Shown here: positions 3,345-27,307 of the stretch, in pieces
Layout: every line of letters begins with the position of its first letter
Position numbering within the stretch: position 1 is the first letter of the stretch
NCBI RefSeq assembly: GCF_009831555.1
Contig: NZ_WUUU01000015.1
Location: 1 to 32,073 of the forward strand
Source of the DNA: Halobacterium bonnevillei
Lineage (GTDB): Archaea > Halobacteriota > Halobacteria > Halobacteriales > Halobacteriaceae
Length of the DNA stretch: 32,073 nt
Direction: 5' to 3'
Notes under the pieces: model-generated
The model's database searches: none
What the model was told of the DNA's origin: nothing
Seen by the model: only the letters and a program-made list of their open reading frames with translations
Made by a program: the position numbers and the translations under genes

Positions 3345-4052
3345 TCAGATGTCGACGTTGATGCCGTTGTCGTCGTCGCCGTTGCCAACCGGGAGGGCTT
3401 CGGCAATCGCGCTCGTGAACGTGTCCAGCCCGCGGGTCTGGTACCAGACCGACCCCGGACCGTCGAACTCCATGACGATGCCCTCGCCGCTGAGCAGGGT
3501 GGACTTCAGGCCGCCGACGCGGCGCGCGCCGAACTCGACGGACTCCTCCCAGGCGACCACGTGTTCGTTGTCTACGACGTAGGCGTCGCCGCGGTCGAGG
3601 TCGACGCGCTCGATACCGCCGAACGCCTCGAGGAACACGATCCCGGTGCCCGACAGCGCCAGCGGCGTGATGCTGGCGCCGGCGAGCATCGACTTCAGGC
3701 CGCCGAACTCCGAGTCGATGTCGAGGCCGGGTTCGGCTGCGAGGAACGCGCCGTCCACGGCGTACAGCGTCTCGCCCCGGAGGTCGTGCTGGCGGACGTC
3801 GCCCGGGGTCGGCGGCGCGAAGGTCACCGTTCCGGGGCCGTCTTCGGCGACGAATTCGTTGGCGAACAGTGATTCGCCACCCAGGAGGGACTTCGCTGAA
3901 CTCAACAGGCCGTCGCGGGTGGTCGAGGTCTCGATGCTGACTTCGGGGTCGTGGCTGACCATCGCGCCGGGCTCTGCGAGAATCGACTCGCCGACGTCGA
4001 GGTCGACGACGAGGTGGGCGTACGACGGTCGGTGGGTGATTGCTACCTGCAT
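3345..4052 (-). CDS. AIM24 family protein
   Basis: A 235-residue protein with the beta-prism-like repeats of the AIM24 (TIGR00266) family: ILAEPGAMVSHDPEV near the N-terminus, GGESLFANEF, then FLAAEPGLDIDSEFGGLKS and the late VGGLKSTLLSGEGIVMEFDGPGSVW segment. The N-terminal GAM and the paired GGLKS motifs are typical. Family members occur widely in bacteria and archaea and mostly lack a defined biochemical role. The ATG at 4052 is preceded by an AT-rich element (AATTTCTC on the minus strand, around 4078-4085) at TATA spacing. It is divergent from the TatD-like gene. Confidence 0.92.
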   Translation of the reverse strand: MQVAITHRPSYAHLVVDLDVGESILAEPGAMVSHDPEVSIETSTTRDGLLSSAKSLLGGESLFANEFVAEDGPGTVTFAPPTPGDVRQHDLRGETLYAVDGAFLAAEPGLDIDSEFGGLKSMLAGASITPLALSGTGIVFLEAFGGIERVDLDRGDAYVVDNEHVVAWEESVEFGARRVGGLKSTLLSGEGIVMEFDGPGSVWYQTRGLDTFTSAIAEALPVGNGDDDNGINVDI

Positions 4053-13357: not shown

Positions 13358-13792
13358 TCAGGACGTTGTGTTGTCCTGCGTCGTCGTCGCGGTAGCCGTC
13401 GCAGTCGTCGTCGCGGTAGCCGTCGCAGTCGTCGTCGCAGTCGTCGTCGCAGTCGTCGTCGCAGTCGGAGTCGCGGTCGGAGTCGCGGTCGGAGTCGCAG
13501 TCGGAGTCGACGTCGCCGTCGCGGTCGTGGTTGCGGTGGACGTCGACGTGGTCGTATTTGTCGTCTCAGTCGTCGTATCCGACGGCGTCGACGTCGGTTC
13601 CGTGGTCGGCGTCGCAGTCGTCGTCGCACTGCCGTCGTCACCCTGGACCGACGCGTTCCCGTCGTCGTCGCCGACGCTGAACGACACGGTGACTGTCTCC
13701 GAATCCGAGAGTGTGGCGACGGTGAACCCGCTGGTGAACCCAGCCAGCAGGACGACGGCGACGACGGCGAGCACGCGCGCGTCAGTCGTCAT
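13358..13792 (-). CDS. Small surface protein: SipW-like N-terminus with a Thr-rich tail
   Basis: A 144-residue protein starting at ATG 13792, overlapping the signal-peptidase stop by 11 bases, so it is translationally linked to it. The N-terminal hydrophobic segment (residues about 6-27, VLAVVAVVLLAGFTSGFTVA) leads into TLSDSETVTVSFSVGDDDG, which resembles the A-x-(F/L)-S-D-x-E junction of SipW substrates. From about residue 57 the protein is almost only Thr, Ala, Pro and Ser (TATPTATPTATTTATTT...), a stalk likely to carry many O-linked sugars. No folded domain follows. It could be a minimal substrate of the adjacent peptidase, a wall-spanning stalk, or an anchor for the fibres. Confidence 0.75.
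   Translation of the reverse strand: MTTDARVLAVVAVVLLAGFTSGFTVATLSDSETVTVSFSVGDDDGNASVQGDDGSATTTATPTTEPTSTPSDTTTETTNTTTSTSTATTTATATSTPTATPTATPTATPTATTTATTTATTTATATATTTATATATTTQDNTTS
13380..13560. repeat. Degenerate triplet/hexamer repeat coding the Thr-rich tail
   Basis: Plus strand shows tandem gtcgtcgcagtcgtcgtcgc-type units mixed with ggagtcgcggtc units (about 13482-13506). They encode alternating Thr/Ala and Thr/Pro dipeptides on the minus strand. Near-identical neighbouring units point to slippage, so repeat number probably varies between strains. Confidence 0.7.
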
Positions 13793-14780
13793 CGTCGTCA
13801 CCTCCGGACGCCGAATCCGCACGGTGGCCGCCGTCGGTCGCCGCGCCCTCGGAGCGGCCGGTAGCGGCGTCCGCGACTGGCTGGTCCGCGCTCTCGCCGT
13901 CCGCACCCCCGAACAGCAACACCGCCGCGATGAACACGACGACCAGCGCCGCGCCGGTGAAGATCGCCACTCGCAGTGGCGTCAGCTGGACGTAGGCCAT
14001 GTACCCGCTGTAGGCAGCGAGCGCGAGGAATCCGACGGAACTGAGCTTCACGTCCATCGGCGTGATCGCCACCGCGTCGTCGGTGGGTTCGTCGGTCGTC
14101 GCAGACTCCGTCGCCACCGCTCCGGGTGCAGGTGCGTCCGCTGATTCGTGAGCGTCCGCTGATTCGTGAGCGTCCGCTGATTCGTGTTCGCCAGCCGGTT
14201 CGAACTCGTCCGCCCACGCAGCGTCGGCTTCGGCACCGGCTTCGTCCGCTGCACCTGTCTCGTCAGCGCCCCTGTCGCGGACGAACGTGTACAGTTCACT
14301 GAGCACGAACAGGGCGATGGGCAACCCGACGAGCGTCGAGAGCCCGGTCGGCGTGTTCGCGAACAACACGACGTGACCCACGAGCGGTATCGCGAACCAG
14401 ACCTCGCCGGTGACGTTGTCCGCGGGCACCGGCGACGCGTCCACCGCGTCGTTGGCGTCGCCCTTCGTGCGGAACGCCAAGCCGTCTTCGCGCTCGACCA
14501 CCTCGACGACGCGATGCGTGACCGGCGTCGACTCGCCGCCGCGGGTGTACGTGATGACGTCGCCCCGTTCGATGCTCGCGGGGTCGACGCTGTTCACGAC
14601 GACGGCGTCGCCCGCGGAAATCGTCGGCTCCATGCTGCCCGAGAGGACGACGTAGCTCGCGTCCGCGCCGACGACCGCCGGCACTGCCTGGACGACGAAC
14701 GCCGCCAAGACGACTACCGCCACTACCGTCACGAAGCCGCCCGTAATACGGCGGAGACTGAATCTGGTCACGCCCACCAC
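13782..14780 (-). CDS. Signal peptidase I (SipW-like), dedicated to the fibre locus
   Basis: A 332-residue membrane protease. TM1 is at about residues 15-37. The catalytic serine is Ser49 in VLSGSMEPTI. His89 (PVTHRVVEVV) replaces the bacterial lysine, and Asp108 and Asp111 lie in TKGDANDAVD; this Ser-His arrangement is that of archaeal, ER and SipW signal peptidases. A second TM (about 140-165, STLVGLPIALFVLSELYTFV) is followed by an acidic region with three HESADA repeats, then two more TM segments (about 246-292) and an acidic tail, an unusually long C-terminal extension. SipW-type peptidases process TasA/CalY-like exported proteins. Its place in the same gene row makes those proteins its likely substrates. 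Confidence 0.93.
   Translation of the reverse strand: MVGVTRFSLRRITGGFVTVVAVVVLAAFVVQAVPAVVGADASYVVLSGSMEPTISAGDAVVVNSVDPASIERGDVITYTRGGESTPVTHRVVEVVEREDGLAFRTKGDANDAVDASPVPADNVTGEVWFAIPLVGHVVLFANTPTGLSTLVGLPIALFVLSELYTFVRDRGADETGAADEAGAEADAAWADEFEPAGEHESADAHESADAHESADAPAPGAVATESATTDEPTDDAVAITPMDVKLSSVGFLALAAYSGYMAYVQLTPLRVAIFTGAALVVVFIAAVLLFGGADGESADQPVADAATGRSEGAATDGGHRADSASGGDDDDD
14134..14187. repeat. Three tandem 18-base repeats inside the signal peptidase gene
   Basis: gcgtccgctgattcgtga occurs at 14134-14151 and 14152-14169, and once more at 14170-14187 with the last base changed. On the minus strand it encodes the HESADA repeat between the second and third TM segments. In-frame and near-perfect, so recently expanded. 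Confidence 0.9.
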
Positions 14781-15954: not shown

Positions 15955-16632
15955 TCACGGCGAATCACACGGCTCGACCGTGAACGACAGGTCCGTCTCG
16001 ACGCTGTCCCCCTGTATCGCATTGCCTGAAGACGCCGGCAGCGACCACTCGAGACCGAGGCAGACCCCCTCGTCCCCCGAGAGGCAGTCACCACCGAGTC
16101 GAACCCCGTTGGCGAGCGCATCGTCCGCGTCGAGCAACGATCCGTCGACGAGCGTCGTCTCCGCGGTGCTCTGGTCGCCGTCACAGCCCCCCAACTCGGA
16201 GACGCCGAACGCGCCGGTGTCGTACCAGACCGAGACGTCGACGGCGTCCCCGAGTTCACCGCGGGACGGCGTGTCGTCGTCTGCTTTGCGCTCGGGTTCG
16301 TTCCGCCCGTTCTCGGCGTTCTCAGTGACCGACAGCGAGAACGTCACGCGTGCGCCGCCCGCTGTCTCGGGCGCGACGCGGAACGCCAGCGACCCCGAAT
16401 CCCCTGGCTGGGCGTTCCCGACGTGCAACACGGGGCCCTCAGCGGACTCGTCGCCGGATTCGACAACCGACCCGTTGTACGTCTCCCGCCACTCCACACG
16501 TACCTCGACGTCGTCTCCCACCGTCGTCGACGACTGGTACGCCACAGTGTCCCCGGAGAACGCGGTGAGCGCCGTCCCGAACGCGACACCGACGCCCGCG
16601 GCGCTCAGCAGGCGTCGCCGCGTGTACTTCAC
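15955..16632 (-). CDS. Short SipW-tag-like exported protein, 225 aa
   Basis: The start is GTG 16632, preceded by GGAGGT with an 8-base spacer (16641-16646), which decides it over the GTG at 16638. The N-terminus VKYTRRRLLSAAGVGVAFGT is a twin-arginine-like signal. The junction is degenerate compared with its neighbours (FSGDTVAYQSSTTVGDDVEV). The body keeps the core signatures: NAQPGDSGSLAFRV, VSVWYDTGAFG, an LLDADDALANGVRLGGDCL segment and the end EWSLPASSGNAIQGDSVETD. It ends FTVEPCDSP rather than the usual AEQxRNN. Probably a diverged or accessory subunit. Next on the strand is the 341-residue SipW-tag gene, whose TATA-like element and start lie in the 105-base gap. Confidence 0.8.
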   Translation of the reverse strand: MKYTRRRLLSAAGVGVAFGTALTAFSGDTVAYQSSTTVGDDVEVRVEWRETYNGSVVESGDESAEGPVLHVGNAQPGDSGSLAFRVAPETAGGARVTFSLSVTENAENGRNEPERKADDDTPSRGELGDAVDVSVWYDTGAFGVSELGGCDGDQSTAETTLVDGSLLDADDALANGVRLGGDCLSGDEGVCLGLEWSLPASSGNAIQGDSVETDLSFTVEPCDSP

Positions 16633-16703
16633 GGCCACGCACCTCCGTGGACGTCGATGCGGTTCCCGGAGTACTCCGCGTGGAATCGTGTGTAGTTGTG
16701 CAT
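16629..16703 (-). CDS. 24-residue small ORF coupled to the next gene
   Basis: ATG 16703 opens MHNYTRFHAEYSGNRIDVHG and ends at TGA 16629-16631, overlapping the GTG of the 225-residue gene by the classic GTGA arrangement. It stands where a full SipW-tag gene would begin, 15 bases after a tRNA-like element. The FHAEYSGN stretch loosely resembles the FYAEQCRNN ending of SipW-tag proteins. It may be what is left of a paralogue after internal deletion, or a real coupling peptide. Too short for certainty. Confidence 0.35.
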   Translation of the reverse strand: MHNYTRFHAEYSGNRIDVHGGAWP

Positions 16704-16718
16704 GGTTCGGTCCGAGAT

Positions 16719-16763
16719 ACCCACCGGCGGAATCGAACCGCCGTTCGTGCCACCAGCGTGGGA
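16719..16763 (-). other. tRNA-like minihelix (element 5)
   Basis: On the minus strand, CCCAC (16758-16762) pairs with GTGGG (16720-16724). Between them lies a T-arm GGCGG-TTCGATT-CCGCC (16726-16742), with a 15-base linker replacing the D and anticodon arms. It begins 15 bases after the 538-residue gene ends and precedes ATG 16703. The acceptor helix has 5 pairs here, the weakest of the five together with element 4. Confidence 0.7.
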
Positions 16764-16778
16764 AGCAGCCGCCGACCG

Positions 16779-18395
16779 CTACGTTCCGCCGGAATCGGAC
16801 CCGGAGCCGTCGTTGTTCCGGCACTGTTCGGCGTAGAACCCGAGGTCGAATCGCACCTCGTCGCCCTGGATCACGTTGCCGACGGACGTGGGAACCCACC
16901 ACTCGAAGCCGACACACACGCCAGTCTCGCCGGGGAGGCAGTCCCGGTCCTCGCTGGTCGAACCAGCGTTCCAACCCATGTCACCGTCGCCGTCGAGGGG
17001 AATCATGCCCCCCTCGGGACCGGAGGCGCCGATGAGGTCCATCGCCGCCGCGAGCGTCGCGGGGTTGGCGCCATCGAGACCGGTGTAGCCGCCGATGCCG
17101 GGCCCGAAGACGAGTTGCTCGCCGTCGTCGTGCTGGTTGTCACAGTCCTCGTCGTACCAGATGCGAACCATCGTGTTCTCGGCGAGCTCACCCTCGTCCG
17201 GCGTTGGTTCGGGGTCCGGCGTCTCGCCAGGGAGGTCCGTAAAGTTCGAGGCCGTGAGCCAGAGGTAGCCAGGGTTGTCGCAGAGGTGCAGCGAGAACGT
17301 GATTTCGCCGCTGTCCCCGGGCTTCACGTCGTCGAGTTGGACGAGGCTGTCCTGGTCGCCGAAGACCCCCTCGGAGAGGTCGTCGCCGCTCTCGATACCG
17401 CACGCACTGTGGATGACGATGTCGCCGACACCGCTCCCGGAGGCGTCGATGCCGCTCTCCAGGGAGATCGGGGTGTTGGCGTCGCCGTCCAGGACCACGA
17501 GGTCCTCCAGGGGCTCGACGTCGCTCTCCGAAATCCAGGTGAGGTCACCCAGCTCGTCGTACTTGCTCGCGCTCTCGTTGAGCTTCGGAGTGAGCCTGAG
17601 CGCGAAGTCACCTTGCGAGCCGTTGTCGTTTACCGGGCCGAGCACCCCGCCGTCGGTGTTCGCGCCGTTCCAGACCCAGTCCCCGACTGCGACGCCATCC
17701 GAGGAGTCAGGGTCCTCGTACGAATCGTCGCTCCCGTTTCGGTCATCGTCCTCGACGACCCAGTCCCCGGTTTCCCACCGAGCGTTCGGCGACCCTTCGA
17801 TCTCGTAGGTCGCGGTACCACCGAACTCCGTCTGCCGGCGGTCGTTGACGACGAACAGGTAGACGTCGTCAGTGTCGGTGTTGCGCCACAGGAACACCGT
17901 GCTACGCTTGTCCGACTGGATGTCGTCGTTCTGCGACTGGTTCCCCGCTTTGTCGTAGGCCGTCTGGGGGTCCGTTCCTTCCAGCGCCTCGATGCAGTAC
18001 GACTCGCCCTCGTAGACGAGGTAGAACTCGCTGTCGGCACAGTCACAGCACGCCGGGACCTCCGCAGCGTCGAAGACGGGGTCCACGTCCCCGGCGCCCG
18101 AGTAGCGGATGCCCTCGAGGTCCTGGACGCCGTCACCGTCTGAGTCCGGATAGGCGTTCACCGGGTGTTCGCCGACCTCCCCGCCACTCCCGGGAATCGG
18201 TCCGTCGTACGTCTGCTGCCAGTCGACCTTCAGGTCGAGCTCGCCGGCCGTGATCGTGTTCCCGTCGAACGACTCGGTGTCGTTGAAGTACGCGCTCGTG
18301 CCGAGGCCGGCTCCCGCCGAAGCGAGCCCGATGCCGCCCAGGCCCGCGAGGATCTGGCGCCGCGACAGTTCTAGTCTGGTTCCGTTCTTGCTCAT
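16779..18395 (-). CDS. SipW-tag fibre-like protein with a large insert in the N-terminal half, 538 aa
   Basis: The N-terminus has SRRQILAGLGG (twin-arginine-like), then TSAYFNDTESFDGNTITAGE, the SipW junction. The conserved core resumes only at LVQLDDVKPGDSGEITFSLH (residue 351 on) and continues with LCDNPGYLW, VRIWYDEDCDN, CVGFEWWVPTSVGNVIQGDE and FYAEQCRNN. Residues about 85-345 are therefore an insertion before the DVKPGD strand. It is beta-rich and has an early Cys cluster (ACCDCADSEFYLVYEGESYC) and aspartate-rich DSDGDGVQD and EDDDRNGSDDSYEDPDSSDG segments that may bind calcium. I do not recognise the insert's family. ATG 18395 has GGAGG with an 8-base spacer. Confidence 0.88.
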   Translation of the reverse strand: MSKNGTRLELSRRQILAGLGGIGLASAGAGLGTSAYFNDTESFDGNTITAGELDLKVDWQQTYDGPIPGSGGEVGEHPVNAYPDSDGDGVQDLEGIRYSGAGDVDPVFDAAEVPACCDCADSEFYLVYEGESYCIEALEGTDPQTAYDKAGNQSQNDDIQSDKRSTVFLWRNTDTDDVYLFVVNDRRQTEFGGTATYEIEGSPNARWETGDWVVEDDDRNGSDDSYEDPDSSDGVAVGDWVWNGANTDGGVLGPVNDNGSQGDFALRLTPKLNESASKYDELGDLTWISESDVEPLEDLVVLDGDANTPISLESGIDASGSGVGDIVIHSACGIESGDDLSEGVFGDQDSLVQLDDVKPGDSGEITFSLHLCDNPGYLWLTASNFTDLPGETPDPEPTPDEGELAENTMVRIWYDEDCDNQHDDGEQLVFGPGIGGYTGLDGANPATLAAAMDLIGASGPEGGMIPLDGDGDMGWNAGSTSEDRDCLPGETGVCVGFEWWVPTSVGNVIQGDEVRFDLGFYAEQCRNNDGSGSDSGGT

Positions 18396-18413
18396 TGGTA
18401 CCCCCTCCTGGGG
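18396..18413 (-). promoter_or_regulatory. Shine-Dalgarno hairpin before the 538-aa gene
   Basis: Minus-strand CCCC (18410-18413) can pair with GGGG (18401-18404) around an AGGAG loop; GGAGG is at 18404-18408, 8 bases before ATG 18395. A TTCCCC run links it to element 4. It could hide or present the ribosome site depending on upstream processing. Confidence 0.55.
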
Positions 18414-18415
18414 AA

Positions 18416-18461
18416 CCCCACCGGCGGGATCGAACCGCCGAACCGGACGACCAGTGTGGGT
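18416..18461 (-). other. tRNA-like minihelix (element 4)
   Basis: Minus strand: CCCAC (18456-18460) pairs with GTGGG (18417-18421). The T-arm GGCGG-TTCGATC-CCGCC spans 18423-18439, with a linker of about 15 bases. It lies 43 bases after the von Willebrand-domain gene ends. Only 5 acceptor pairs form, with mismatches at both ends of the helix. Confidence 0.7.
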
Positions 18462-18504
18462 CCCGGCCGCCCGCGAGCGGGGGCCGGACGATTGACTGCT
18501 GTCC

Positions 18505-20166
18505 CTACGAACCGGGGTTGTCGTTGTTGCGGCACTGCTCCGTGTAGAACCCGAGATCGAAGGCCACGGAGTCGCTCTGGATCTCGTTGCCGACGTCCGT
18601 CGGCACCCACCACGCGAAGCCGACGCAACTCGTCTGTGACGCGGTGAAACACGCACGCTCCTCGGTGCTGGTGTCACCGTCGAGCGCGATACCGTCCCCA
18701 GCGGTGAGTTCCACGAGCGATTCGCGCAGGGTGCCGCGGAAGATCGGTTCCTCGCCGCCGGAGCCGACCGTGCCACCGATCCCCTGGAAGACGGACTCGA
18801 CGTCGGAGGTGTCCGCGTCGAACGCGTACTGGTCCTCTGGGTTGGAAGCTGGGTCGCTCGCCATGTCGCCGAGGGTCCCCGTCGGCGCGCCGCTGCCGTA
18901 CGCGATGGTGAAGACCTCCGCGTTGTCGCTTTTGAGGTTGCCCGCCTCGTTGACGGGGTCCTCGCTCGGCGAGTCAGTGACGCCGGAGTCCTCGTTTGCG
19001 TTCCCGTCACTCAGGAAGACGACGATTTTGCGTGCGCCCGAACGGGCGTTCCCGCTCTCGCCGTACGCGCTGCCGAACTCGTCAGCGGCGAACAGTTCCT
19101 CGTGGGCCTGTTCGACGCCGGCCTCCATGTTCGTGCCACCGCCAGTGGAGATTGCGTTGACCGCGTTCTGCACGGCGTTGTGGTCAGTGGTCAGCCCCTC
19201 GTCGAGAGACACGTCGTCCGCGAAGGAAACCAGCGAAACCTGGTCGTTCGGACCGAGGGCGTCGATGAGCGAGTTCGCGCCGTTCTGGGCCTGAGTGATG
19301 GCCGATCCACTCATGGAACCGGACCGGTCAAGCACGATCACGACGTCGGCCTCCTCGCCGTCGGTGCTGCCACCTCCGCCGGCCGAGAAGACGTTGTTAC
19401 AGTCACCGTCGTACCAGAGCGCAGTTTGGACCTCGTCGAGCAGTTCGACGTCACCGCCCTGGAGGTCGGTGACCGTCTCGTCGCTCGGACCCGCGTCACT
19501 GGAGTTGCCTTCGGGTTCCGTGATGCCGTTCTCGTTGGCTTCGACGAGGTCACCCTGCATCCAGACGTACCCGTCGTTGTCACAGAGGTGGAAACTCAGC
19601 GTGAGTTCGCCGAAGTCCCCCGGCTTCACGTCGTTCAGGTTGACGAGCGGGTTCGGCTCGGACGCACCCATCGTGTCTTCGTTCTGGGTTCGGAAGCCCT
19701 CAGTCGGGTCAAGGTCGGATGGGGTGTCCGCACCGTCCGCACAGAAGCTTCCGACATCGCCCATGTTGAACGACTCCTGGATGCCATCGTCGTCCTGGTC
19801 CGGGTACGCCTCGATGGCAGTGTTGTCCATGTACGCATCGAGGTCGTCGTCGTGCACCCAGACCATGGGGGTGTTCGGATCCGGAAGTGCCGTGTAGGAC
19901 GACGTATCGGCCGGCTCGGACCGCGTCACGTCGAGTCCGGCAGTCGGATCTTCGAACCCGTAGATCTGGGGGTAGGAGTAGTGCTCCTCCCAGTCGACTT
20001 TCAGGTCGAGCGTCCCCGCCGTGATGGTGTTGTCTTCGAACGATTCGGTGTCCGTGAGGTATGCGGACGTTCCGAGGCCGGCGGCCGCGGACGCGAGGCC
20101 GACGCCTCCCAGTCCCGCGAGCACTCGCCGCCTCGAAAGCCGGTACCGTTTGCCGTCATCGGTCAT
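18505..20166 (-). CDS. SipW-tag fibre-like protein with inserted von Willebrand A domain, 553 aa
   Basis: Signal with RLSRRRVLAGLGG and the junction TSAYLTDTESFEDNTITAGT (residues 33-52). Core part one runs to about residue 260 (LNDVKPGDFGELTLSFHLCD, GYVWM, WYDGDCNN). A vWA domain occupies about 273-465 with a complete metal-ion site: DRSGSMS (Asp280, Ser282, Ser284), Thr345 in GGGTNMEAG and Asp387 in FLSDGNAN. The core then resumes at EPIFRGTLRESL and ends WWVPTDVGNEIQSDSVAFDL and FYTEQCRNND. The vWA domain is thus nested in a loop of the fibre fold. vWA domains usually bind proteins or surfaces, so an adhesive subunit is likely. The N-terminal 130 residues closely match the beta-propeller protein at 25568-27307. 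Confidence 0.93.
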   Translation of the reverse strand: MTDDGKRYRLSRRRVLAGLGGVGLASAAAGLGTSAYLTDTESFEDNTITAGTLDLKVDWEEHYSYPQIYGFEDPTAGLDVTRSEPADTSSYTALPDPNTPMVWVHDDDLDAYMDNTAIEAYPDQDDDGIQESFNMGDVGSFCADGADTPSDLDPTEGFRTQNEDTMGASEPNPLVNLNDVKPGDFGELTLSFHLCDNDGYVWMQGDLVEANENGITEPEGNSSDAGPSDETVTDLQGGDVELLDEVQTALWYDGDCNNVFSAGGGGSTDGEEADVVIVLDRSGSMSGSAITQAQNGANSLIDALGPNDQVSLVSFADDVSLDEGLTTDHNAVQNAVNAISTGGGTNMEAGVEQAHEELFAADEFGSAYGESGNARSGARKIVVFLSDGNANEDSGVTDSPSEDPVNEAGNLKSDNAEVFTIAYGSGAPTGTLGDMASDPASNPEDQYAFDADTSDVESVFQGIGGTVGSGGEEPIFRGTLRESLVELTAGDGIALDGDTSTEERACFTASQTSCVGFAWWVPTDVGNEIQSDSVAFDLGFYTEQCRNNDNPGS

Positions 20167-20187
20167 AGTTGCTCCCCCCGTGAGGGG
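20167..20187 (-). promoter_or_regulatory. Leader hairpin with partial ribosome site before the vWA gene
   Basis: Minus strand: CCCC (20184-20187), loop TCAC, GGGG (20176-20179), continuing into GGAG (20172-20175), 5 bases before ATG 20166. It follows element 3 directly, in the same layout as the hairpins before the 538- and 274-residue genes. Confidence 0.5.
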
Positions 20188-20189
20188 AA

Positions 20190-20276
20190 ACCCACTGGCG
20201 GAATCGAACCGCCGCATCGCGGCGAGTCCGCGCGAGCGAGTCGGCGCGAACTCGAGTCGCGATTCCCAGCGTGGGT
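20190..20276 (-). other. tRNA-like minihelix with long linker (element 3)
   Basis: Minus strand: ACCCAC (20271-20276) pairs with GTGGGT (20190-20195), 6 bp. T-arm GGCGG-TTCGATT-CCGCC is at 20197-20213. The linker is 56 bases and contains its own closing helix, ATCGCG (20258-20263) with CGCGAT (20215-20220), like an extra arm. It starts 14 bases after the 274-residue gene ends. Confidence 0.75.
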
Positions 20277-20290
20277 GAGTGGCCGCATCG

Positions 20291-21115
20291 CTACGAACTG
20301 TTGAACGGTGCGCCGTTGTTCCGGACCTGCTCGGCGTCGAACCTGAGCGTGAACGTCACCTCGTCGCCCTGGATGTCGTTGCCGACGCCCGCCGGGAGTT
20401 CGAGTAGCTGGTAGAACCACGCGGCGTCGCTGTTCGTACCGACCTCCAGGGGGTCTCCGGTCGACGGGTCCCGGAGCAAAACGCCGGTCTTGTAGACGTC
20501 GTGGGCCTCGTTCATCGTCGTGTAGTGGGCGCCACTCGGGGTTTCGCCATCCACGTTCGTCGGCGCCTCGTAGCTGCTCAGACCACTATCGTTGAGGTCG
20601 GTCGTCTCGTCCAGCGGCTGGAGGGCCGCGGGAGAGGTCCCGCCCGACGTATCCGGGTAATCTGCCCAAATCGTCGAGAGGAGCGCATCTCCCAGGTCCC
20701 CCGGCGAATTCGTGTCCGTCTCCGGTTCCGGATTCGCGCCCTCGTCGTTGTCGTAGTCCTCGTCGACGGACGTGACCTGGACGTATCCCGGATTGGCCAT
20801 GACCTCGGGATTCCACTCGAGGATGAGCCAGTCGCCGGGCTTCATGTCGGCGACCGTGATCGTCACCTCGTTCCCGTCTGCGGTGTCCTTCGGAGTGATC
20901 GTCGTGTTATCCCGGACGATTGCGGTGCTGTGCGCGATGTTGTCGACGGTGACCCGCAGGTTCAGTTCGCCCGCGGTGATGCTGTTCCCGTCGAACGACT
21001 CGCTGTCGGTGAAGTACGCGGAGGTGCCGAGCCCGGCACCAGCGGCGGCCGCACCGACGCCGCCGACGCCTGCGAGCACCTTCCGCCGCGTCAGTTCGAA
21101 GTTCTTGTCTGTCAT
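20291..21115 (-). CDS. Plain SipW-tag fibre subunit, 274 aa (operon A)
   Basis: Start ATG 21115 (MTDKNFELTRRKVLAGVGGV). The junction is TSAYFTDSESFDGNSITAGE. The core is uninterrupted: TVADMKPGDWLILEWNPEV, NPGYVQVTSV, then GAHYTTMNEAHDVYKTGV and the end LPAGVGNDIQGDEVTFTLRF with AEQVRNNGAPFNSS. At this length it is a bare fibre-type domain with no cargo. It is the closest relative, in this window, of the 285-residue first gene of operon B, sharing the HYTTxxEAxDxYxTGV segment. Plain subunits are the natural candidates for the main polymer, with the decorated paralogues as minor subunits. TasA-like polymerisation is inferred from family resemblance. Confidence 0.9.
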   Translation of the reverse strand: MTDKNFELTRRKVLAGVGGVGAAAAGAGLGTSAYFTDSESFDGNSITAGELNLRVTVDNIAHSTAIVRDNTTITPKDTADGNEVTITVADMKPGDWLILEWNPEVMANPGYVQVTSVDEDYDNDEGANPEPETDTNSPGDLGDALLSTIWADYPDTSGGTSPAALQPLDETTDLNDSGLSSYEAPTNVDGETPSGAHYTTMNEAHDVYKTGVLLRDPSTGDPLEVGTNSDAAWFYQLLELPAGVGNDIQGDEVTFTLRFDAEQVRNNGAPFNSS

Positions 21116-21139
21116 TCGTATCGCTCCCCACTCCTGGGG
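21116..21139 (-). promoter_or_regulatory. Leader hairpin and ribosome site before the 274-aa gene
   Basis: Minus strand: CCCCA (21135-21139), loop GGAG (21131-21134), TGGGG (21126-21130), a 5-bp hairpin. GGGGAG (21124-21129) stands 8 bases before ATG 21115. It follows element 2 after a few bases including TTCCCC. Confidence 0.55.
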
Positions 21140-21142
21140 AAG

Positions 21143-21183
21143 GCCCACCGGCGGAATCGAACCGCCGAGGTGCCAGCGTGGGC
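21143..21183 (-). other. tRNA-like minihelix (element 2)
   Basis: Minus strand: GCCCAC (21178-21183) pairs with GTGGGC (21043-type strand at 21143-21148), 6 bp. T-arm GGCGG-TTCGATT-CCGCC is at 21150-21166, with a linker of about 11 bases. This is the most compact copy and leaves only the acceptor and T halves of a tRNA. It lies 31 bases after the 555-residue gene ends. Confidence 0.8.
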
Positions 21184-21214
21184 GGGGCGGGCTCAGTCGC
21201 CCGGAACCGCGTCG

Positions 21215-22882
21215 CTACGGGTCGACGTCGTTGTCGTTTCCGTCCTGGATTCCGTTCGGGAACGTGGAGTTCTCGGTCCGAACCTGCGCCGGCTCGACGT
21301 CCACCAGTCGGAGGCCGAGCGGCGCGCTGCTGCCGCTCGTGTCCACCTTCCGGAGCAACGCACTGTCGTCGGCGACGGAGTCGTCGCCGTCGTCGTCGTG
21401 GAGTTCGATGTCCTCGCCCTCGCCGGCCGGGAGACTGCCGCTCTGGCCGTTGTTCCGCGCGACGACGTTGTCGAGCGTGACGCGCTGTTCGGTGCGGCTG
21501 CGGTCGCCCTTCCAGCTGACGTCGACGCCCTCCTCCTGGTTTTCCTCGACCGTCGAGTCGAGGATGACGTTGTTGTCGCCGTTGAAGTAGAGGCCGTTGT
21601 CGCCGTTCCTCGCGGCGTGCACCGTCTCGACGTGGCAGTCGTTGGCGTACCAGCCCGTGAGACCGTCGTTGCCGTTGTCTTCGATGGCCGTGTCCCGGAC
21701 AATCGCGCCGTCGATGTAGTTGAGGACGAGCGCGCGGCCGCGGCCGTCGTTCCCGTTGTCGACGATGGCGGTGTTGCTCACCAGGCCGCCGGCGAGCCGA
21801 CCACTCGAACCGCTGTTGTCGTTGTACTGGATGACCTGGTCAGCGCCCGTCGCCGTGAGGTCGCCGACGCGGACGTTGTCGGCCCGGATCTTCATCCCGA
21901 GGTCGCGGCCGCCGGTCAGACTGCCGCTCCCGCCGACGTCGAACGCGTCGTACGTGGTATTCGACGGCCCCTCGCCGCGAATGTCGAGAGTCTTGTCGAC
22001 GGTGACCTCGCCGGTGTGCGTGCCTGCTTCGAGCAGGAGCGTGTCGCCGCTAGACGCGTCGTCGACGGCCGTCTGGAGGTCGTCGCCGGTGCTGACGAGC
22101 GTCCAGTCGCCGACGCCAGTGTTGTTCCTGGCCTGCTCGGCGTAGAACTGCAGGTCAAAGCCCACGGAGTCGGCCTGGATCTCGTTGCCGACCCACGTCG
22201 GCACCCACCAGTCGAGACGCACGCACGTGTCGTCAGTCGGTTCGTCGGTGCTATCGCCGCCGTCGAACGTCGGTCGGTCGACGACCCCTGCGGTCGGGTC
22301 GCCGTCGCCGTGCAGCGGGACACCGGCGTGCAGGTCGGACAGCACTCCGAGCAGCGTCCCCTCGGTGAGCAGGACGTCGTCGTCGTTGCTGTCGCTCGTC
22401 TCGCCCGTGTAGTAGAGCGCCGCACGCGTGTACGTGGCGAGCTCCCCGCCGTCGCCCGTCTCCCAGGGCGTGTCGCCTTCCGGTTCTGTGACGGCGTTCT
22501 CGCTGTCGTCGGTCAGCTCGCCGCTCATCCACAGATAGGCGGGATTGTCCACCAGCGAGAAGCAGAACTCCAGGGAGCCCTCGTCGCCCGGTTTGACGTC
22601 CGAGAGGCTGTAGCTGACGCCGACACCCTCGCTCACGTCTTCGTCGCCCTGTACAGTCCCGGACAGTGGACCGTCGAAATTCCCGCTGGCCGACCCCTGA
22701 TCGACCATGAAGTCGTAGTGGACGTAGAGGTCGAGTTCGCCAGCTTCGAGCGTGTTTCCGACAAACGATTCCGTATCGTTCAGGTACGCGGACGTGCCGA
22801 GTCCGGCGGCCGCACCTGCGGCACCAATCGTGCCGAGGCCGGCGAGGACGCGACGACGCGTGAGTTCGAGTTGCTTCGACAT
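21215..22882 (-). CDS. SipW-tag fibre-like protein with C-terminal beta-helix, 555 aa (first gene of operon A)
   Basis: Start ATG 22882 (MSKQLELTRRRVLAGLGTIG), junction TSAYLNDTESFVGNTLEAGE. The complete core ends at WWVPTWVGNEIQADSVGFDL and FYAEQARNN (about residue 254). Residues 258-545 form a right-handed parallel beta-helix of the NosD/pectate-lyase type, opening with DLQTAVDDASSGDTLLLEAG. Rungs with Asn/Asp-Gly turns follow (VDNGNDGRGRALVLNYIDGA, IEDNGNDGLTGWYANDCHVE). Beta-helices of this kind often bind or cleave polysaccharides; no catalytic set is evident. A related protein ends operon B (23673-25457). First gene of operon A, preceded by the duplicated promoter region and lacking a Shine-Dalgarno sequence. 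Confidence 0.92.
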   Translation of the reverse strand: MSKQLELTRRRVLAGLGTIGAAGAAAGLGTSAYLNDTESFVGNTLEAGELDLYVHYDFMVDQGSASGNFDGPLSGTVQGDEDVSEGVGVSYSLSDVKPGDEGSLEFCFSLVDNPAYLWMSGELTDDSENAVTEPEGDTPWETGDGGELATYTRAALYYTGETSDSNDDDVLLTEGTLLGVLSDLHAGVPLHGDGDPTAGVVDRPTFDGGDSTDEPTDDTCVRLDWWVPTWVGNEIQADSVGFDLQFYAEQARNNTGVGDWTLVSTGDDLQTAVDDASSGDTLLLEAGTHTGEVTVDKTLDIRGEGPSNTTYDAFDVGGSGSLTGGRDLGMKIRADNVRVGDLTATGADQVIQYNDNSGSSGRLAGGLVSNTAIVDNGNDGRGRALVLNYIDGAIVRDTAIEDNGNDGLTGWYANDCHVETVHAARNGDNGLYFNGDNNVILDSTVEENQEEGVDVSWKGDRSRTEQRVTLDNVVARNNGQSGSLPAGEGEDIELHDDDGDDSVADDSALLRKVDTSGSSAPLGLRLVDVEPAQVRTENSTFPNGIQDGNDNDVDP

Positions 22883-22992
22883 GGTTTCTGTCGGCCCAAC
22901 GGCAGGTCGGGCACTGTCAACCCCTGCGTCTCATACCCCCATAGCTAATCGCGGAATTCCCAGGAAAACGGCCAATTGAGCGGGTTTAAGCC
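22883..22992 (-). promoter_or_regulatory. Promoter and leader of operon A, related to that of operon B
   Basis: Read toward ATG 22882, the minus strand shows GCTTA followed by C-rich sequence (22985-22989 on), a CCGTTTTCC stretch, then CGCGATTAGCTATG (22940-22953) and a leader hairpin GCCCGAC...GTTGGGC (22894-22912). The 14-base block is identical in operon B, at the same distance from the start to within one base (58 versus 57). It may contain the TATA element, giving a leader of roughly 35 bases. The upstream blocks may bind a common regulator. Confidence 0.7.
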
Positions 22993-23325
22993 CGTTCCTT
23001 AGGATTTAGCAGCGTCCTTCCCCCGCGAGTCCTCGGCTGTGTTGGAGAGAACGGAACGGAAACGGAAACGCGCTCGCTGTAGTGAGATTGGAGACTACAG
23101 TATCTCATCGAGACGATGAAAGATGATAGAATATTGCAGGAGATGATAGAATGGGATCGCACACTGTGAGGCTCGGACAGTGAGCGGAGAGAATACGGTA
23201 GCGTCGATGTGAGGGGGTCGGCGCTGTGGAGATGCGACCTTCGACGCTTCCGCCGCCCCCATCGCCGTCTGGCAGAGAGTGTCGCGTTGGCTCCGACTGG
23301 TCGGGCGGTGGTCGCAACCGAATCG
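22993..23325. other. Gene-free stretch with AT-rich 12-base direct repeats
   Basis: No convincing coding frame. The stretch from about 23090 to 23165 is markedly AT-richer than its surroundings. It holds two copies of agatgatagaat at 23121-23132 and 23141-23152, a 20-base period, i.e. two helical turns. They could be operator sites or the promoter of an unannotated RNA. The rest has the composition of spacer or decayed sequence. Confidence 0.4.
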
Positions 23326-23580
23326 CTACACCCAGTGAAGGAGATAGAGGAGATAGAGGCCCGCGCCGGTAACCCCCCCACCAGCGAGAACGAATCCAAC
23401 CCCGAAGAGGATGGACGGCGCGTACAGCGCAAGCTGGACCAATTGCAGACCGACCAGGATGGCGAACAGCGAGAGAATCGTCCAGAGAGCGGTTTCGAGT
23501 ACCGTTCGACTCGTGCCGATGAGTTCGTCGCGGACGATGGCCCGAACCTCTCGTTCGCTGAGTCCATCGTCGGGCGCCAT
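23326..23580 (-). CDS. Small two-TM membrane protein, 84 aa
   Basis: ATG 23580 (MAPDDGLSEREVRAIVRDEL) follows a TATA-like ATCTTATTG about 27 bases upstream, which favours it over ATG 23607. A short soluble helical head is followed by two hydrophobic segments (about residues 28-52 ETALWTILSLFAILVGLQLV, and 55-80 LFGVGFVLAGGGVTGAGLYL). Family not recognised. It lies between operon B and operon A on the same strand, 92 bases after the operon B beta-helix gene and behind a TGGCTCGAGCCA palindrome (23624-23635) that may end operon B. It could be an assembly or anchoring factor, but that is position only. Confidence 0.7.
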   Translation of the reverse strand: MAPDDGLSEREVRAIVRDELIGTSRTVLETALWTILSLFAILVGLQLVQLALYAPSILFGVGFVLAGGGVTGAGLYLLYLLHWV

Positions 23581-23672
23581 ACCGGTGTCTCGGAGAGTCA
23601 GCAACAATAAGATGTCGACTGACTGGCTCGAGCCACCAGCGGTTCCGGACTCTCGAAGAATCGACCGACGGT

Positions 23673-25457
23673 CTACGAGCGTTCGATCCGAGTCCCCGAG
23701 ATGGTGCCGGCTGGCGTGAAGCTATTCGTCGCAAGGACAGCGCTCAGGTCCAGCGACCCCGTACCGTCGCCGACGTACACCTCGTCGTCCTGACTATCTC
23801 CGGAGAATTCGTTCGATTCGATTGTCACCGTCGAGCCGTCCGTCGAACTGCCGACAACCACGTGGAATGGCGGCGCGAAATTGTCAGAGGTCGTGGTCTC
23901 GACGTCCGAGATCGTGTTCTCGCGGATGGTCACATTCGACGGACCCGTTGCGCTACCGCCGCCCTGAGCGAGGGAGATCACCTGCGTGAACCCGCCCGGA
24001 GCGCCGCCCGAACCGGGAATCGTCCCTTCGGTGTTCAGGTCGCTGATTTCGTTCCCGTCGATGACGCCGGAAACGTCGCCGTTGAATCTGACAGCGACCG
24101 TCGAGCGCGTGTCCAGCAGCCCAGTGATCGTGTTCCCCCGGACTGTCGCGTCGGTTATCTGGGTGCCCGACTCGTTGACCAGAATCGCCTGGACGGCGCC
24201 CTCGTCCTCGTCGGTTCCCTCCAGGTTCCGGAGTTCGTTGCCGTAGATCGTGATGCCGCTGGTGCCGTCACTCGCCAGAATCCCGATCGGGTTCGCGTCG
24301 TCGTCACCCGTTCCGATGTCCGCGAGGACGTTGTGCTGCAGGCAAACGTTCTCGCTGCCCGAGGAGACGTCTATCCCAACGGTTCCGGCGTAGTCGGTCG
24401 GATCCCCAGAACCCTGGGTTCCGGGGTTCCGGATTTCGAATCCGTCGACAGTGACGTCGTCTGCCTGAACGTCGACGGTGGACCCATTCGAGTGCTCGAC
24501 GACGGGTCGTTCTGCGCTCGCCCGCGCGAGGGTGAGTGGCGTATCGACGTCGATCGCCTCGGTGTAGTCGCTTCCGTCCCCGAAGGTGCCGCCGAAGACG
24601 CTGACGACGTCGCCCGCGCTGGCGTCGTCGACGGCACTCTGGATTGCGTCACCCGGCAGCACGGTTGCGTCCGCGAACGGGTTCTGGGGCGCGGGGTTGT
24701 TGCGCGTCTGGTAGGCCGCGAACGTGAGGCCGAACGCCACACCGTCCGACTGGATCTCGTTACCGACGTCGGTGGGAACCTCCCACTCGATGCAGAGACA
24801 CGGTCCGTTCTGTGTGCTGCTATCTGGCGACGAGGGATACGCGTCCGTTCCGGTGGTCGTGGCGTCGCCGTCGAGCAGGAATCCGCTCTCGAGTTCCTTG
24901 AACAGGTCTGCGAGCGTGTAATCGGCCGGGTTCTGGAACTCGTGGATCACCCCGCCACTCTCGGTACAGTACGACACGTCGACCTGGAGTACCGCCGAGA
25001 GTTCGCCCGCCCCCGCTCCGCTCGGAACGTTTCCGAGACTTCCGGCGTCGGAGCCGTCCACGTCCCCCTCGGGTTCGGTCTGCCCGTTCTCGTAGTCGGT
25101 GACGCCGACGGTACTACCGATCCAGAGCCACCCCGGGTTGTCGACGATCTTCGGGCTGAACTGCAGCGAGCCGCTATCGCCGGGTGTCAGGTCGTTGATC
25201 ACGTACTCCCCCGTAGCGGTTCCATCGCCGTCGATCGTCCCGTCGTTCGTCGTGCTTCCGGTGGTGACCCCGTCCTGGCTGACAGCCGTTTCGTAGTCGA
25301 CGTACAGGTCCACTTCTCCGGCCCGAATCTCGTTGCTCTCGACGGTTTCCGTGTCGCTGAAGTACGCGGACGTCCCCAGCCCGGCCGTCGCAGAGGCCAA
25401 GCCGATACCGCCCACGCCCGCGAGTATTCGACGTCGTGTGAGTTCGAATTCTCTCAT
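23673..25457 (-). CDS. SipW-tag fibre-like protein with C-terminal beta-helix, 594 aa (operon B)
   Basis: Start ATG 25457 (MREFELTRRRILAGVGGIGL), with GGAGG 8 bases upstream. Junction TSAYFSDTETVESNEIRAGE. The core contains NDLTPGDSGSLQFSPKIVDN, PGWLWIG and CIEWEVPTDVGNEIQSDGVA, ending in AYQTRNN (about residue 254). From about 264 a parallel beta-helix begins (AIQSAVDDASAGDVVSVFGG) with rungs such as NVCLQHNVLADIG, GITIYGNELRNLEG and NVTIRENTISDVE, the NosD-like pattern, to the end. It is a paralogue of the 555-residue protein of operon A, with the same fusion point just after RNN. Probably the last gene of operon B. Confidence 0.92.
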   Translation of the reverse strand: MREFELTRRRILAGVGGIGLASATAGLGTSAYFSDTETVESNEIRAGEVDLYVDYETAVSQDGVTTGSTTNDGTIDGDGTATGEYVINDLTPGDSGSLQFSPKIVDNPGWLWIGSTVGVTDYENGQTEPEGDVDGSDAGSLGNVPSGAGAGELSAVLQVDVSYCTESGGVIHEFQNPADYTLADLFKELESGFLLDGDATTTGTDAYPSSPDSSTQNGPCLCIEWEVPTDVGNEIQSDGVAFGLTFAAYQTRNNPAPQNPFADATVLPGDAIQSAVDDASAGDVVSVFGGTFGDGSDYTEAIDVDTPLTLARASAERPVVEHSNGSTVDVQADDVTVDGFEIRNPGTQGSGDPTDYAGTVGIDVSSGSENVCLQHNVLADIGTGDDDANPIGILASDGTSGITIYGNELRNLEGTDEDEGAVQAILVNESGTQITDATVRGNTITGLLDTRSTVAVRFNGDVSGVIDGNEISDLNTEGTIPGSGGAPGGFTQVISLAQGGGSATGPSNVTIRENTISDVETTTSDNFAPPFHVVVGSSTDGSTVTIESNEFSGDSQDDEVYVGDGTGSLDLSAVLATNSFTPAGTISGTRIERS

Positions 25458-25476
25458 CGTACACCCCTCCCGGGAA

Positions 25477-25527
25477 ACTCACGAGCGGAGTCGAACCGCT
25501 CGACGGTCGCGTCGCACCTGCGTGAGT
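25477..25527 (-). other. tRNA-like minihelix (element 1)
   Basis: Minus strand: ACTCACG (25521-25527) pairs perfectly with CGTGAGT (25477-25483), a full 7-bp acceptor stem. T-arm AGCGG-TTCGACT-CCGCT (25484-25500) has exactly tRNA geometry: 5-bp stem, 7-base loop, no gap before the acceptor strand. A 20-base linker replaces the other arms. Stem bases differ from elements 2-5 on both strands together (T-A for C-G in the acceptor, A-T for G-C in the T-stem), so pairing is conserved rather than sequence. Confidence 0.85.
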
Positions 25528-25567
25528 CGGACGTCTCGATTCGCGAACGACGAGTGTCGGAGGCGAC

Positions 25568-27307
25568 TCAGGGCCCGGTCGGGTTGTCGTTGTTCCGACA
25601 CTGCTCGGTGTAGAAGCCGAGGTCGAAACTGACCGTGTCCCCCTGGATCTCGTTGCCGACGTCCGTCGGCACCCACCAGGCGAACCCGACGTACCGGGTA
25701 AGTCCTGGCTGGTAGCAGTCGCCACCGTTCAGCACGTAGCCGTTCTGGGCGGCACCGAACTCGTCGAAGGCGTCGGCGAGCGTCCCGGCGAAGATCGTCT
25801 CCTCGCAGAGTTCGCCGGTCGTGAGGTCGCCGTAGGTGTGGTCAGTGAGGTCCCCGGAGAAGGACCGACGCTCGACCACGGTTCCGTCGCTGTCGAAGAA
25901 CACGAGTTCAGTCCCCTGACTGATCGACCCGACGAAGTCGCCAGTCCCGGAGTCCGACACCGCCAGGCCCGTCAGGTCCTCGCCAGTCTCGAGTTCCGCG
26001 ACCTGCGAGACGCTGCCTGACAAGAGGTCGACGGTGTGGAGGGCGTTCGTGGCGTTGGTGTACAGGTAGAATTGGCCGGTCGACGTAAACGCGTTGTCGG
26101 CACCGTTGATGTCGACGTCGAGGTCAATTCTGTCCGTGATTTCTGGCGCAGTCTCCGGGTTGGACACGACGAACAGTGCGTCCTCGGCCATATCGCCGAC
26201 GTAGAGCGTCCCGTCCGTGTCCACGGTGACCTGAACGACGTCGTTGAACGGTCCGTGTCCGTCGGGGTCGTCAATCGGGTCGATCGACAGTTGCGCGTTC
26301 GGAACGTCGTACGTCGCGAGTTCCATCTGGTTCCACGGAACAGCATACACCGTCTCCCCATCGGGAGACGCACCGGTGTGGGCACGGTCCAGCACAGTGC
26401 CGCCTTCCTCGAGGTCAGTCAGGTGGGTCGTAGCTGCACCTGAACTGATGTCGACTTCGTAGAGGCTCGCAGGATCGTCGTTGTGCTCGTAGTCCGTCAT
26501 GTAGAGCGTGTCTCCACACTCGCCCCTGTCGAGAACGTTGTCGCCGTCGTCGTACCACCAGACGGTCTGGATGTTCTCTGCGAGCTCGCCCCCGTCCGAC
26601 TCGCCGTCCCCGAGCGCGGCCTCCTCCGGTTCCGTCAGTTCGCCGCCACTCTGCGAGACGTTCCCCGTCTGCAGCCACACGTAGCCGGGGTTGCCGCAGA
26701 GGTGGAAACTCAGCGTGAACTCCCCGAAGTCGCCGGGTTTGACGTCTTGCAGATTGATCAACGGCTGCGGCTCGTCGTCGACGTACGTATCGGCGTTGTT
26801 CGTTCGGGTCGCGTTGCCGCCGCCCGGGGTGAGGTCGTCGTCTACGTCCGCCCCGTGCGCGCAGGCATCGTAAACGAACTGGTCGTCGACCGCGTCGTCG
26901 TTCTCCCCGATTGTCTCCTGTTCGCCGTCGTTGTCGGGGTCCGGGAACGCCTCTATCGCCGTGTTCGACATGTAGGCACCGAGGTCGTCCTCGTGCACCC
27001 ACACCATCGGGTTCTCCGGATGCGGAAGACCGACGTAGTCCCCCGATTCAGCTGGTTCGGCACGCTGGACGGCGAGACCCGCTGCTGGATCGTCGAAGCC
27101 GTAGAGCTGCGGATACGAGTAGTGTTCCTCCCAGTCGACTTTCAGGTCCAGCGTCCCCGCCGTGATCGTGTTGTTCTCGAACGACTCCGAATCGGAGAGG
27201 TACGCTGACGTCCCGAAGCCGGCCGCGGCAGAGGCGAGCCCGATACCGGCCGCTCCAGCGAGCACGCGACGCCGCGTCAGGTCCAGGCCAGCGGGTTTGT
27301 CACTCAT
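25568..27307 (-). CDS. SipW-tag fibre-like protein with inserted beta-propeller, 579 aa (operon B)
   Basis: Start ATG 27307 (MSDKPAGLDLTRRRVLAGAA), 15 bases after the previous stop. Junction TSAYLSDSESFENNTITAGT. The first 130 residues closely match the vWA protein of operon A, including VDWEEHYSYPQLYGFDDPAA and MVWVHEDDLGAYMSNTAIEA. The core continues with LQDVKPGDFGEFTLSFHLCG and WWYDDGDNVLDRGE. Residues about 266-495 are a propeller-like repeat domain (GDTLYMTDY, DGETVYAVPW, DGTLYVGDMAEDALFVV, GQFYLYTN, TGLAVSDSGTGDFVGSI). The core resumes at EETIFAGTLADAF and ends WWVPTDVGNEIQGDTVSFDL, FYTEQCRNND. The insertion site is the same loop that carries the vWA domain in the operon A paralogue. 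Confidence 0.92.
   Translation of the reverse strand: MSDKPAGLDLTRRRVLAGAAGIGLASAAAGFGTSAYLSDSESFENNTITAGTLDLKVDWEEHYSYPQLYGFDDPAAGLAVQRAEPAESGDYVGLPHPENPMVWVHEDDLGAYMSNTAIEAFPDPDNDGEQETIGENDDAVDDQFVYDACAHGADVDDDLTPGGGNATRTNNADTYVDDEPQPLINLQDVKPGDFGEFTLSFHLCGNPGYVWLQTGNVSQSGGELTEPEEAALGDGESDGGELAENIQTVWWYDDGDNVLDRGECGDTLYMTDYEHNDDPASLYEVDISSGAATTHLTDLEEGGTVLDRAHTGASPDGETVYAVPWNQMELATYDVPNAQLSIDPIDDPDGHGPFNDVVQVTVDTDGTLYVGDMAEDALFVVSNPETAPEITDRIDLDVDINGADNAFTSTGQFYLYTNATNALHTVDLLSGSVSQVAELETGEDLTGLAVSDSGTGDFVGSISQGTELVFFDSDGTVVERRSFSGDLTDHTYGDLTTGELCEETIFAGTLADAFDEFGAAQNGYVLNGGDCYQPGLTRYVGFAWWVPTDVGNEIQGDTVSFDLGFYTEQCRNNDNPTGP

Follow-up and report, generated by a model that had tools for sequence, protein, structure and literature searches.

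The window analyzed here, the whole stretch of 32,073 nucleotides (nt) from Halobacterium bonnevillei (contig NZ_WUUU01000015.1, positions 1 to 32,073), holds on its minus strand a cluster of genes whose products have beta-helix, VWA and other domains in addition to SipW-tag signal peptides, and between genes of this cluster lie five transfer RNA (tRNA)-like elements, E1 to E5 (Table 1). In each of them an acceptor-like helix adjoins a T-arm, as in the t-elements found before 5S ribosomal RNA (rRNA) in haloarchaea, and we hypothesize that the messenger RNA (mRNA) of these fibre genes is cut there by tRNase Z.

Table 1. Elements, leaders and genes of the fibre cluster (SD, Shine-Dalgarno; all cuts are predicted tRNase Z cuts).
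Feature	Position	Strand	Description
E1	25476..25527	minus	Acceptor ACTCACG/CGTGAGT (7 bp), T-stem AGCGG/CCGCT, loop TTCGACT; predicted cut 25476|25475
E2	21142..21184	minus	Acceptor GCCCAC/GTGGGC, T-stem GGCGG/CCGCC, loop TTCGATT; predicted cut 21142|21141
E3	20189..20277	minus	Acceptor ACCCAC/GTGGGT, long linker, T-stem GGCGG/CCGCC; predicted cut 20189|20188
E4	18415..18462	minus	Acceptor CCCAC/GTGGG without outermost pair, T-stem GGCGG/CCGCC; predicted cut 18415|18414
E5	16718..16764	minus	Acceptor CCCAC/GTGGG without outermost pair, T-stem GGCGG/CCGCC; predicted cut 16718|16717
P2 leader, past E1	25458..25475	minus	TCCCGGGAGGGGTGTACG, hairpin with SD-like GGAGG
P4 leader, past E2	21116..21141	minus	TTCCCCAGGAGTGGGGAGCGATACGA, hairpin with SD-like GGAG
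P5 leader, past E3	20167..20188	minus	TCCCCTCACGGGGGGAGCAACT, hairpin
P6 leader, past E4	18396..18414	minus	TCCCCAGGAGGGGGTACCA, hairpin with SD-like GGAGG
P0	27323..28237	minus	Camelysin/SipW-type protein (PF12389); no element between P0 and P1
P1	25568..27307	minus	SipW-tag protein (TIGR04088)
P2	23673..25457	minus	SipW-tag protein, NosD-like match; downstream of E1
P3	21215..22882	minus	SipW-tag protein, right-handed beta-helix; no preceding element; probable start of second transcription unit
P4	20291..21115	minus	SipW-tag protein; downstream of E2
P5	18505..20166	minus	SipW-tag protein, VWA domain; downstream of E3
P6	16779..18395	minus	SipW-tag protein; downstream of E4
P7	15955..16638	minus	Signal-like N-terminus, no family match; downstream of E5 and a 24-codon open reading frame
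Signal peptidase S26-type protein	13782..14780	minus	PF10502; farther down the cluster

A mechanical scan of both strands of the window for T-arms (TTCRANN loop, at least four of five stem pairs) returned 21 places, and all five pairs were present only in E1 to E5 and at one plus-strand place (23489), where the best acceptor has just 5 of 7 pairs. Together with the covariance models described below, the scan places the five minus-strand elements where a sequence-only reading of this DNA had put them, each with the 5-bp T-stem and 7-base TTCGAYY loop that it described. In their common plan the acceptor 5' strand reads CTCAC in E1 and CCCAC in the other four, and a purine and CTGG, replaced in E1 by CAGG, come next. 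Past the GG, 6 to 52 linker bases lead to the T-arm, and the element closes with one base (paired in E1 only), GTGGG or GTGAG, and 1-2 further bases. The acceptor-like helix, earlier given as 5-7 bp, is present with six pairs as its standard length; a seventh is found in E1 only and the outermost is missing in E4 and E5. Likewise, the distance from the preceding stop codon, earlier put at 14-43 bases, was measured as 39, 30, 13, 42 and 14 nt (E1 to E5), and the SipW-tag gene expected next does follow E1 to E4, whereas E5 precedes a 24-codon open reading frame and then P7, for which neither Pfam nor NCBIfam gave a match at E 0.01. A full tRNA gene with cloverleaf and anticodon arm was ruled out for the window by ARAGORN, which called no tRNA gene there, and so was a known curated RNA family, since Rfam gave nothing at the gathering score across the window and nothing at E up to 1 in 16400-25800.

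Three pairs are altered on both sides between the five copies, in one copy each, as the sequence-only reading had described. In a shuffle test three such double-sided changes were reached in 5 of 500 shuffles, the covariation score in 33 and the percentage paired in 56, and because of the latter two figures the five copies alone are weak evidence. Besides a covariance model built from them, two more were used: a second was built from 17 t-elements upstream of 5S rRNA alone, and a third from 99 relatives in other genomes with the window sequence left out. Over the 3.5-Mb genome this third model, whose independence is partial since its members were originally found by a window-derived model, recovered all five elements (E 3e-9, 4e-8, 1e-7, 1e-7 and 2e-5), the next match standing at 0.18, and in whole-genome searches with the five-copy and relatives' models E1 to E5 were the sole mRNA copies found. 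Two alignments of relatives were made, one of 104 distinct rows and one of 72 rows that includes ten 5S t-elements; standard pairs fill 96.6% and 96.2% of the pair cells, both sets being aligned to the structure, and the 43 and 65 double-change cells were reached in none of 500 shuffles for either set. The stems at homologous loci do pair, the opposite of the unpaired stems that the sequence-only reading had named as counting against it.

The 5S rRNA gene of this same genome, on another contig, has upstream of it an element built in the same way (helix GCCGAT/ATCGGT, an A.G mismatch, CTGG, T-stem AACGG/CCGTT, loop TTCGATT, and a single base before 5S), and among 30 fetched 5S loci 27 show a TTCRANN T-arm immediately ahead of the 5S gene. 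The window elements share with haloarchaeal 5S t-elements the acceptor-like helix with a mostly unpaired seventh position, the GG past the 5' strand, the variable linker, the 5-bp T-stem, the TTCRANN loop and the single base ahead of the following RNA. In fact, the model built from 5S t-elements alone found four of the five window copies (E2 9e-8, E5 1.5e-5, E3 8e-4, E4 2e-3), ranked directly behind the genome's own 5S t-element, a member of its training set; in E1 it saw the T-arm alone, at a non-significant E of 0.28, with the following match at 1.05. On 482 kb comprising the window and 40 fibre loci it gave 68 matches with E below 1e-3, all of them among the 108 elements found there by the five-copy model, the other 40 missing that line. 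Conversely, of 75 matches of the five-copy model in 59 further stretches, nine were separated by exactly one base from an Rfam 5S match downstream and a tenth preceded a 5S-like sequence, and the relatives' model found t-elements in 9 of the 30 5S loci at E up to 0.01. The relation to the t-elements of Haloferax suggested in the sequence-only reading is thus upheld by the shared anatomy, by models that recognize both ways and by relatives that covary.

The window elements differ from 5S t-elements in that they lie in mRNA, upstream of protein genes and several per cluster, so that mRNA leaders rather than 5S rRNA follow them, and in their helices, mostly CCCAC/GTGGG and GGCGG/CCGCC, often with a CCC-loop-GGG hairpin next. 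Since neither the five-copy nor the relatives' model lists the genome's own 5S t-element, and the latter misses 21 of 30 5S loci at E 0.01, the mRNA elements are a distinct subgroup with its own helix sequences. The t-element kind is already known at 5S rRNA and its setting in mRNA ahead of fibre genes is new; we propose that the signal itself is of one kind in both. According to passages of PMC4326828, tRNase Z of H. volcanii generates the 5S 5' end at the t-element, and maturation of 5S rRNA by tRNase Z is likewise stated in parts of PMC7714728 and PMC3296008. Because alignment with the 5S t-elements puts the cut there, cleavage of the window elements is predicted one base past the acceptor helix.

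Within the ten inner pairs G.U combinations number 38 and A.C combinations 1, and all 108 elements of the first set are codirectional with the next called gene; given this bias, the helix covariation and the single orientation, selection, as read from these sequences, acts on the element as RNA of the minus strand. The closing G, G, C and C of the T-arm and loop positions T2, G4 and A5 are present in 108 of 108 rows, T1 in 106 and C3 in 107. For 94 of the 108 mRNA elements and 15 of the 17 5S ones, the t-element fold lies at most 2 kcal/mol above the minimum, and with the folding results given further below the computed energies appear neutral overall.

The elements are close to the genes that they precede. 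A downstream frame was located for 166 of the 172 elements retained after ten 5S t-elements and one double fetch were dropped, with a median distance of 23 nt to the called start. Among the 111 of these 166 leaders that are short (15-40 nt), 82 carry CCC-N3-9-GGG starting at most 4 nt past the element (shuffled mean 2, maximum 8), and 58 fit the strict form TCCCC-N3-8-GGGG (shuffled maximum 1). This hairpin, absent from the sequence-only reading, would stand at the extreme 5' end of the downstream message if the cut occurs at the predicted site.

Based on this kinship and on the leaders, we consider it likely that the elements belong to the haloarchaeal t-element kind and that tRNase Z cuts the mRNA at them, giving defined, hairpin-capped 5' ends. 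The element, transcribed within the fibre mRNA, would form a half-tRNA in which the acceptor helix stacks on the T-arm and the GG may dock on the T-loop, as G18G19 does in tRNA; tRNase Z would bind the acceptor and T-arm and cut one base past the acceptor helix, as at 5S. The upstream message would then end in the element and the downstream message would open with the hairpin and reach its start codon some 20 nt past the cut; the hairpin would probably shield the new 5' end against 5'-3' decay and present the ribosome site. Separation of two genes is probably not the whole function, and the making of a defined 5' end seems to fit better, because five or six relatives occupy leaders of first genes (five with a divergent upstream gene, a sixth 448 nt from its upstream gene). 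The purpose proposed in the sequence-only reading, different subunit doses, is a hypothesis, as is a part for RNase P. With less assurance, we are inclined to see here a natural mRNA punctuation of haloarchaea, in which stripped-down tRNAs of the t-element kind mark the starts of fibre messages, 5' ends are defined by tRNA-maturation enzymes and not by promoters, and fibre output is tied to the tRNA-processing load. An RNase Z-type protein is encoded in the genome (E 5e-29).

Several observations weigh against cleavage at a t-element. The RNase Z-type match scores under its curated cut-off, and Hoelzle et al. reportedly stated in a 2012 abstract that further predicted tRNA-like elements of H. 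volcanii were not cleaved in vitro. Both large alignments were fitted to the structure and their rows are related, which favours the pair counts; moreover, the outermost pair is the least conserved, is non-standard in 31 of 104 and 27 of 72 rows and shows no discrimination (G.U 27, A.C 26). The failure of the five-copy and relatives' models to list the genome's own 5S t-element, and of the latter to reach most 5S loci, counts in the same direction. Folded alone, the element structure lies 4.1 kcal/mol above the minimum in E5 and 2.4 kcal/mol above it in E3; longer stretches give the whole minihelix only in E4 (nearly), keep the T-arm in E2 and the acceptor in E1 and E3, and keep neither in E5, and of 200 shuffles 132, 28, 1, 115 and 68 fold equally well or better (E1 to E5). 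Finally, no element is present at 40 of 119 codirectional junctions before SipW-like genes, labels that were assigned by regular expression and are in part false, and ARAGORN calls seven long-linker relatives tRNA genes. These calls lie at 3475 in locus L046, 5418 and 7464 in L053, 8820 and 9632 in L061, 2469 in L167 and 2579 in L179, so that some elements may be annotated as tRNA in public genomes.

Of the alternatives, the strongest holds that the element acts uncut in the leader, imitating a tRNA and, jointly with the hairpin and its SD bases, governing ribosome access or stability, or binding a tRNA-handling protein. The nearness of the start codon, the SD-like bases within or beside the hairpin and the five or six elements in first-gene leaders, where no genes need separating, all suit it, yet it leaves unexplained why the element shares its kind with the 5S t-element, a cutting signal, and we regard it as rather unlikely. 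A still lower probability is given to cleavage by both RNase P and tRNase Z, freeing the element as a small RNA of about 41 to 134 nt with a role of its own; parts of the H. volcanii work describe both enzymes cutting t-elements that flank CRISPR RNA (crRNA), but conservation is lowest at the outermost acceptor pair, adjoining the RNase P site, and 15 of 17 5S t-elements have A.C there. Repeats at gene boundaries with variable linkers would also be expected of DNA-level sites for recombination or integration, either attC-like or left over from tRNA att sites, at which fibre genes are shuffled, a very improbable reading in view of the single orientation to the next gene and the 5S kinship; an integron attC-like site should show G.T and A.C equally, in contrast to the 38 and 1 observed in the inner pairs. 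Chance matches in GC-rich spacers or ordinary terminators deserve next to no credence, since, despite the high GC content and the longer E1, E4 and E5 stretches that fold no better than shuffles, chance is refuted by the covariation in two sets and the genome-wide E values of the relatives' model, and the T-loop positions are invariant or nearly so in 108 rows; no scan for terminators was made.

Returning to cleavage at a t-element, a general parallel is found in mitochondria, where tRNAs between the genes of polycistronic transcripts are the cut sites at which tRNA enzymes release mRNAs; the window elements differ in lacking a canonical anticodon or D arm and in yielding no tRNA. MALAT1 and NEAT1 carry tRNA-like 3' ends and are long RNAs matured by tRNA machinery, but they are mammalian, non-coding and unrelated in sequence. 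In H. volcanii, passages of PMC4326828 describe t-elements around a crRNA that yield it in vivo, and constructs in which flanking t-elements release the RNA between them in vivo appear in parts of PMC4326828 and PMC4946936; these are man-made, and the window would be a natural mRNA counterpart. In the portion of PMC8303175 dealing with processing sites of H. salinarum and H. volcanii, no motif unified the internal sites, and tRNA and rRNA sites were out of its focus. In the open-licence literature no paper was recognized as describing t-elements in natural mRNAs and none was found on SipW or Taf fibres of haloarchaea. If cleavage occurs as predicted, this would be a natural case, across one archaeal order, of mRNA processing at tRNA-like signals, it would explain separately controlled messages from long fibre clusters, RNA 5' ends would be predicted to the base, one past each acceptor helix, and such signals would join tRNA and 5S rRNA as a third type of substrate for haloarchaeal tRNase Z. 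The elements could also become parts for multi-gene expression in halophiles.

A search of haloarchaeal genomes with the five-copy model, as the sequence-only reading had suggested, did find relatives, and those inspected mostly precede genes for SipW-tag or related secreted proteins. At E up to 0.001 and among the matches listed, 82 of 293 genomes of the order and 39 of 87 genera are represented, the present genome included; six of the 82 hold 5S t-elements only, two are apparent chance, four (G044, G144, G251, G290) were uninspected and 70 are other carriers. TIGR04088 is matched in 55 of these 70 and in 55 of the remaining 223 genomes (Fisher p 1.4e-15, uncorrected for relatedness), and 8 of the 15 carriers that miss it have a downstream protein with, in our reading, a GxGAFTS-type N-terminus. 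Of 100 fetched stretches, all but L218 were searched, 40 of them together with the window at E up to 0.1 (108 matches) and the other 59 at E up to 0.01. Among 105 downstream proteins (first 120 residues) TIGR04088 is matched by 62, TafA by 23, TafE by 17 and TafC by 16, and among 61 others by 25, 14, 11 and 10, respectively, one being a signal peptidase; these counts use E up to 0.01 rather than curated cut-offs, one protein can match several families, and some starts are called late, which lowers them. A loose SipW-like or GAFTS-like N-terminal pattern fits 133 of the 166 downstream proteins, and at codirectional junctions of the window and 40 loci an element is present in 79 of the 119 that precede SipW-like genes and in 21 of the 148 that precede other genes. 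Matches at L164 (helix-turn-helix/TnsD-like neighbour) and L194 (replication factor A) are probably due to chance. In a phylum sample 11 of 246 genomes, a total whose split inside and outside the order is not given, reach E 1e-4 or better, every one of them from this order; an exact pattern occurs in 48 stretches among 84,980 species (one genome each), 46 of them haloarchaeal by title. Four of 72,556 plasmid records match E4, all haloarchaeal, and in the two annotated plasmids opened the element follows a gene labelled SipW-dependent-type signal peptide-containing protein.

The sequence-only reading had placed all five elements in a single operon, at its gene junctions. The 15-nt junction between P0 and P1 has none, and a gap of 790 nt, containing a single gene call of 85 codons, separates P2 from P3. 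Because of this gap and of the motif ATTAGCTATGGGG at 22948 (minus), 66 nt upstream of P3 and common to other fibre loci, the elements are probably spread over two transcription units. An identical or near form of ATTAGCTATGGGG is found in L046, L053, L059, L068, L114, L133, L158 and L191, placed so far upstream of the first called fibre gene (L046, L068) or of the first-gene element (L191), and it may be a promoter or regulator site. AT content upstream of 169 elements is flat (0.35-0.40), in a weak promoter test whose control, 87 divergent starts, peaks at only 0.46-0.47. The 24-codon open reading frame MHNYTRFHAEYSGNRIDVHGGAWP (16703-16629, minus) starts 14 nt past E5 and its stop overlaps a GTG at 16632, which is in the P7 frame; in L176 and L188 open reading frames of 36 and 37 codons, mutually alike, lie 20 nt past their elements.

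Tandem 5S rRNA genes are found in L165, L171, L182, L185 and L196, where the five-copy model places a t-element before each of the two genes in L165 and L196 and before a single one in L171, L182 and L185. Outside the archaea, single elements of nearly the same plan occur in Lapidilactobacillus dextrinicus, L. concavus and one more family member (L132 3610-3654, L155 1439-1484, L225 1491-1535), 3 of 151 genomes by exact pattern; those of L132 and L155, sites without a tRNA or Rfam match, sit shortly past a stop codon. The relatives' model scores the three at E 9e-6 to 3e-5, and they may represent either a bacterial counterpart or convergence.

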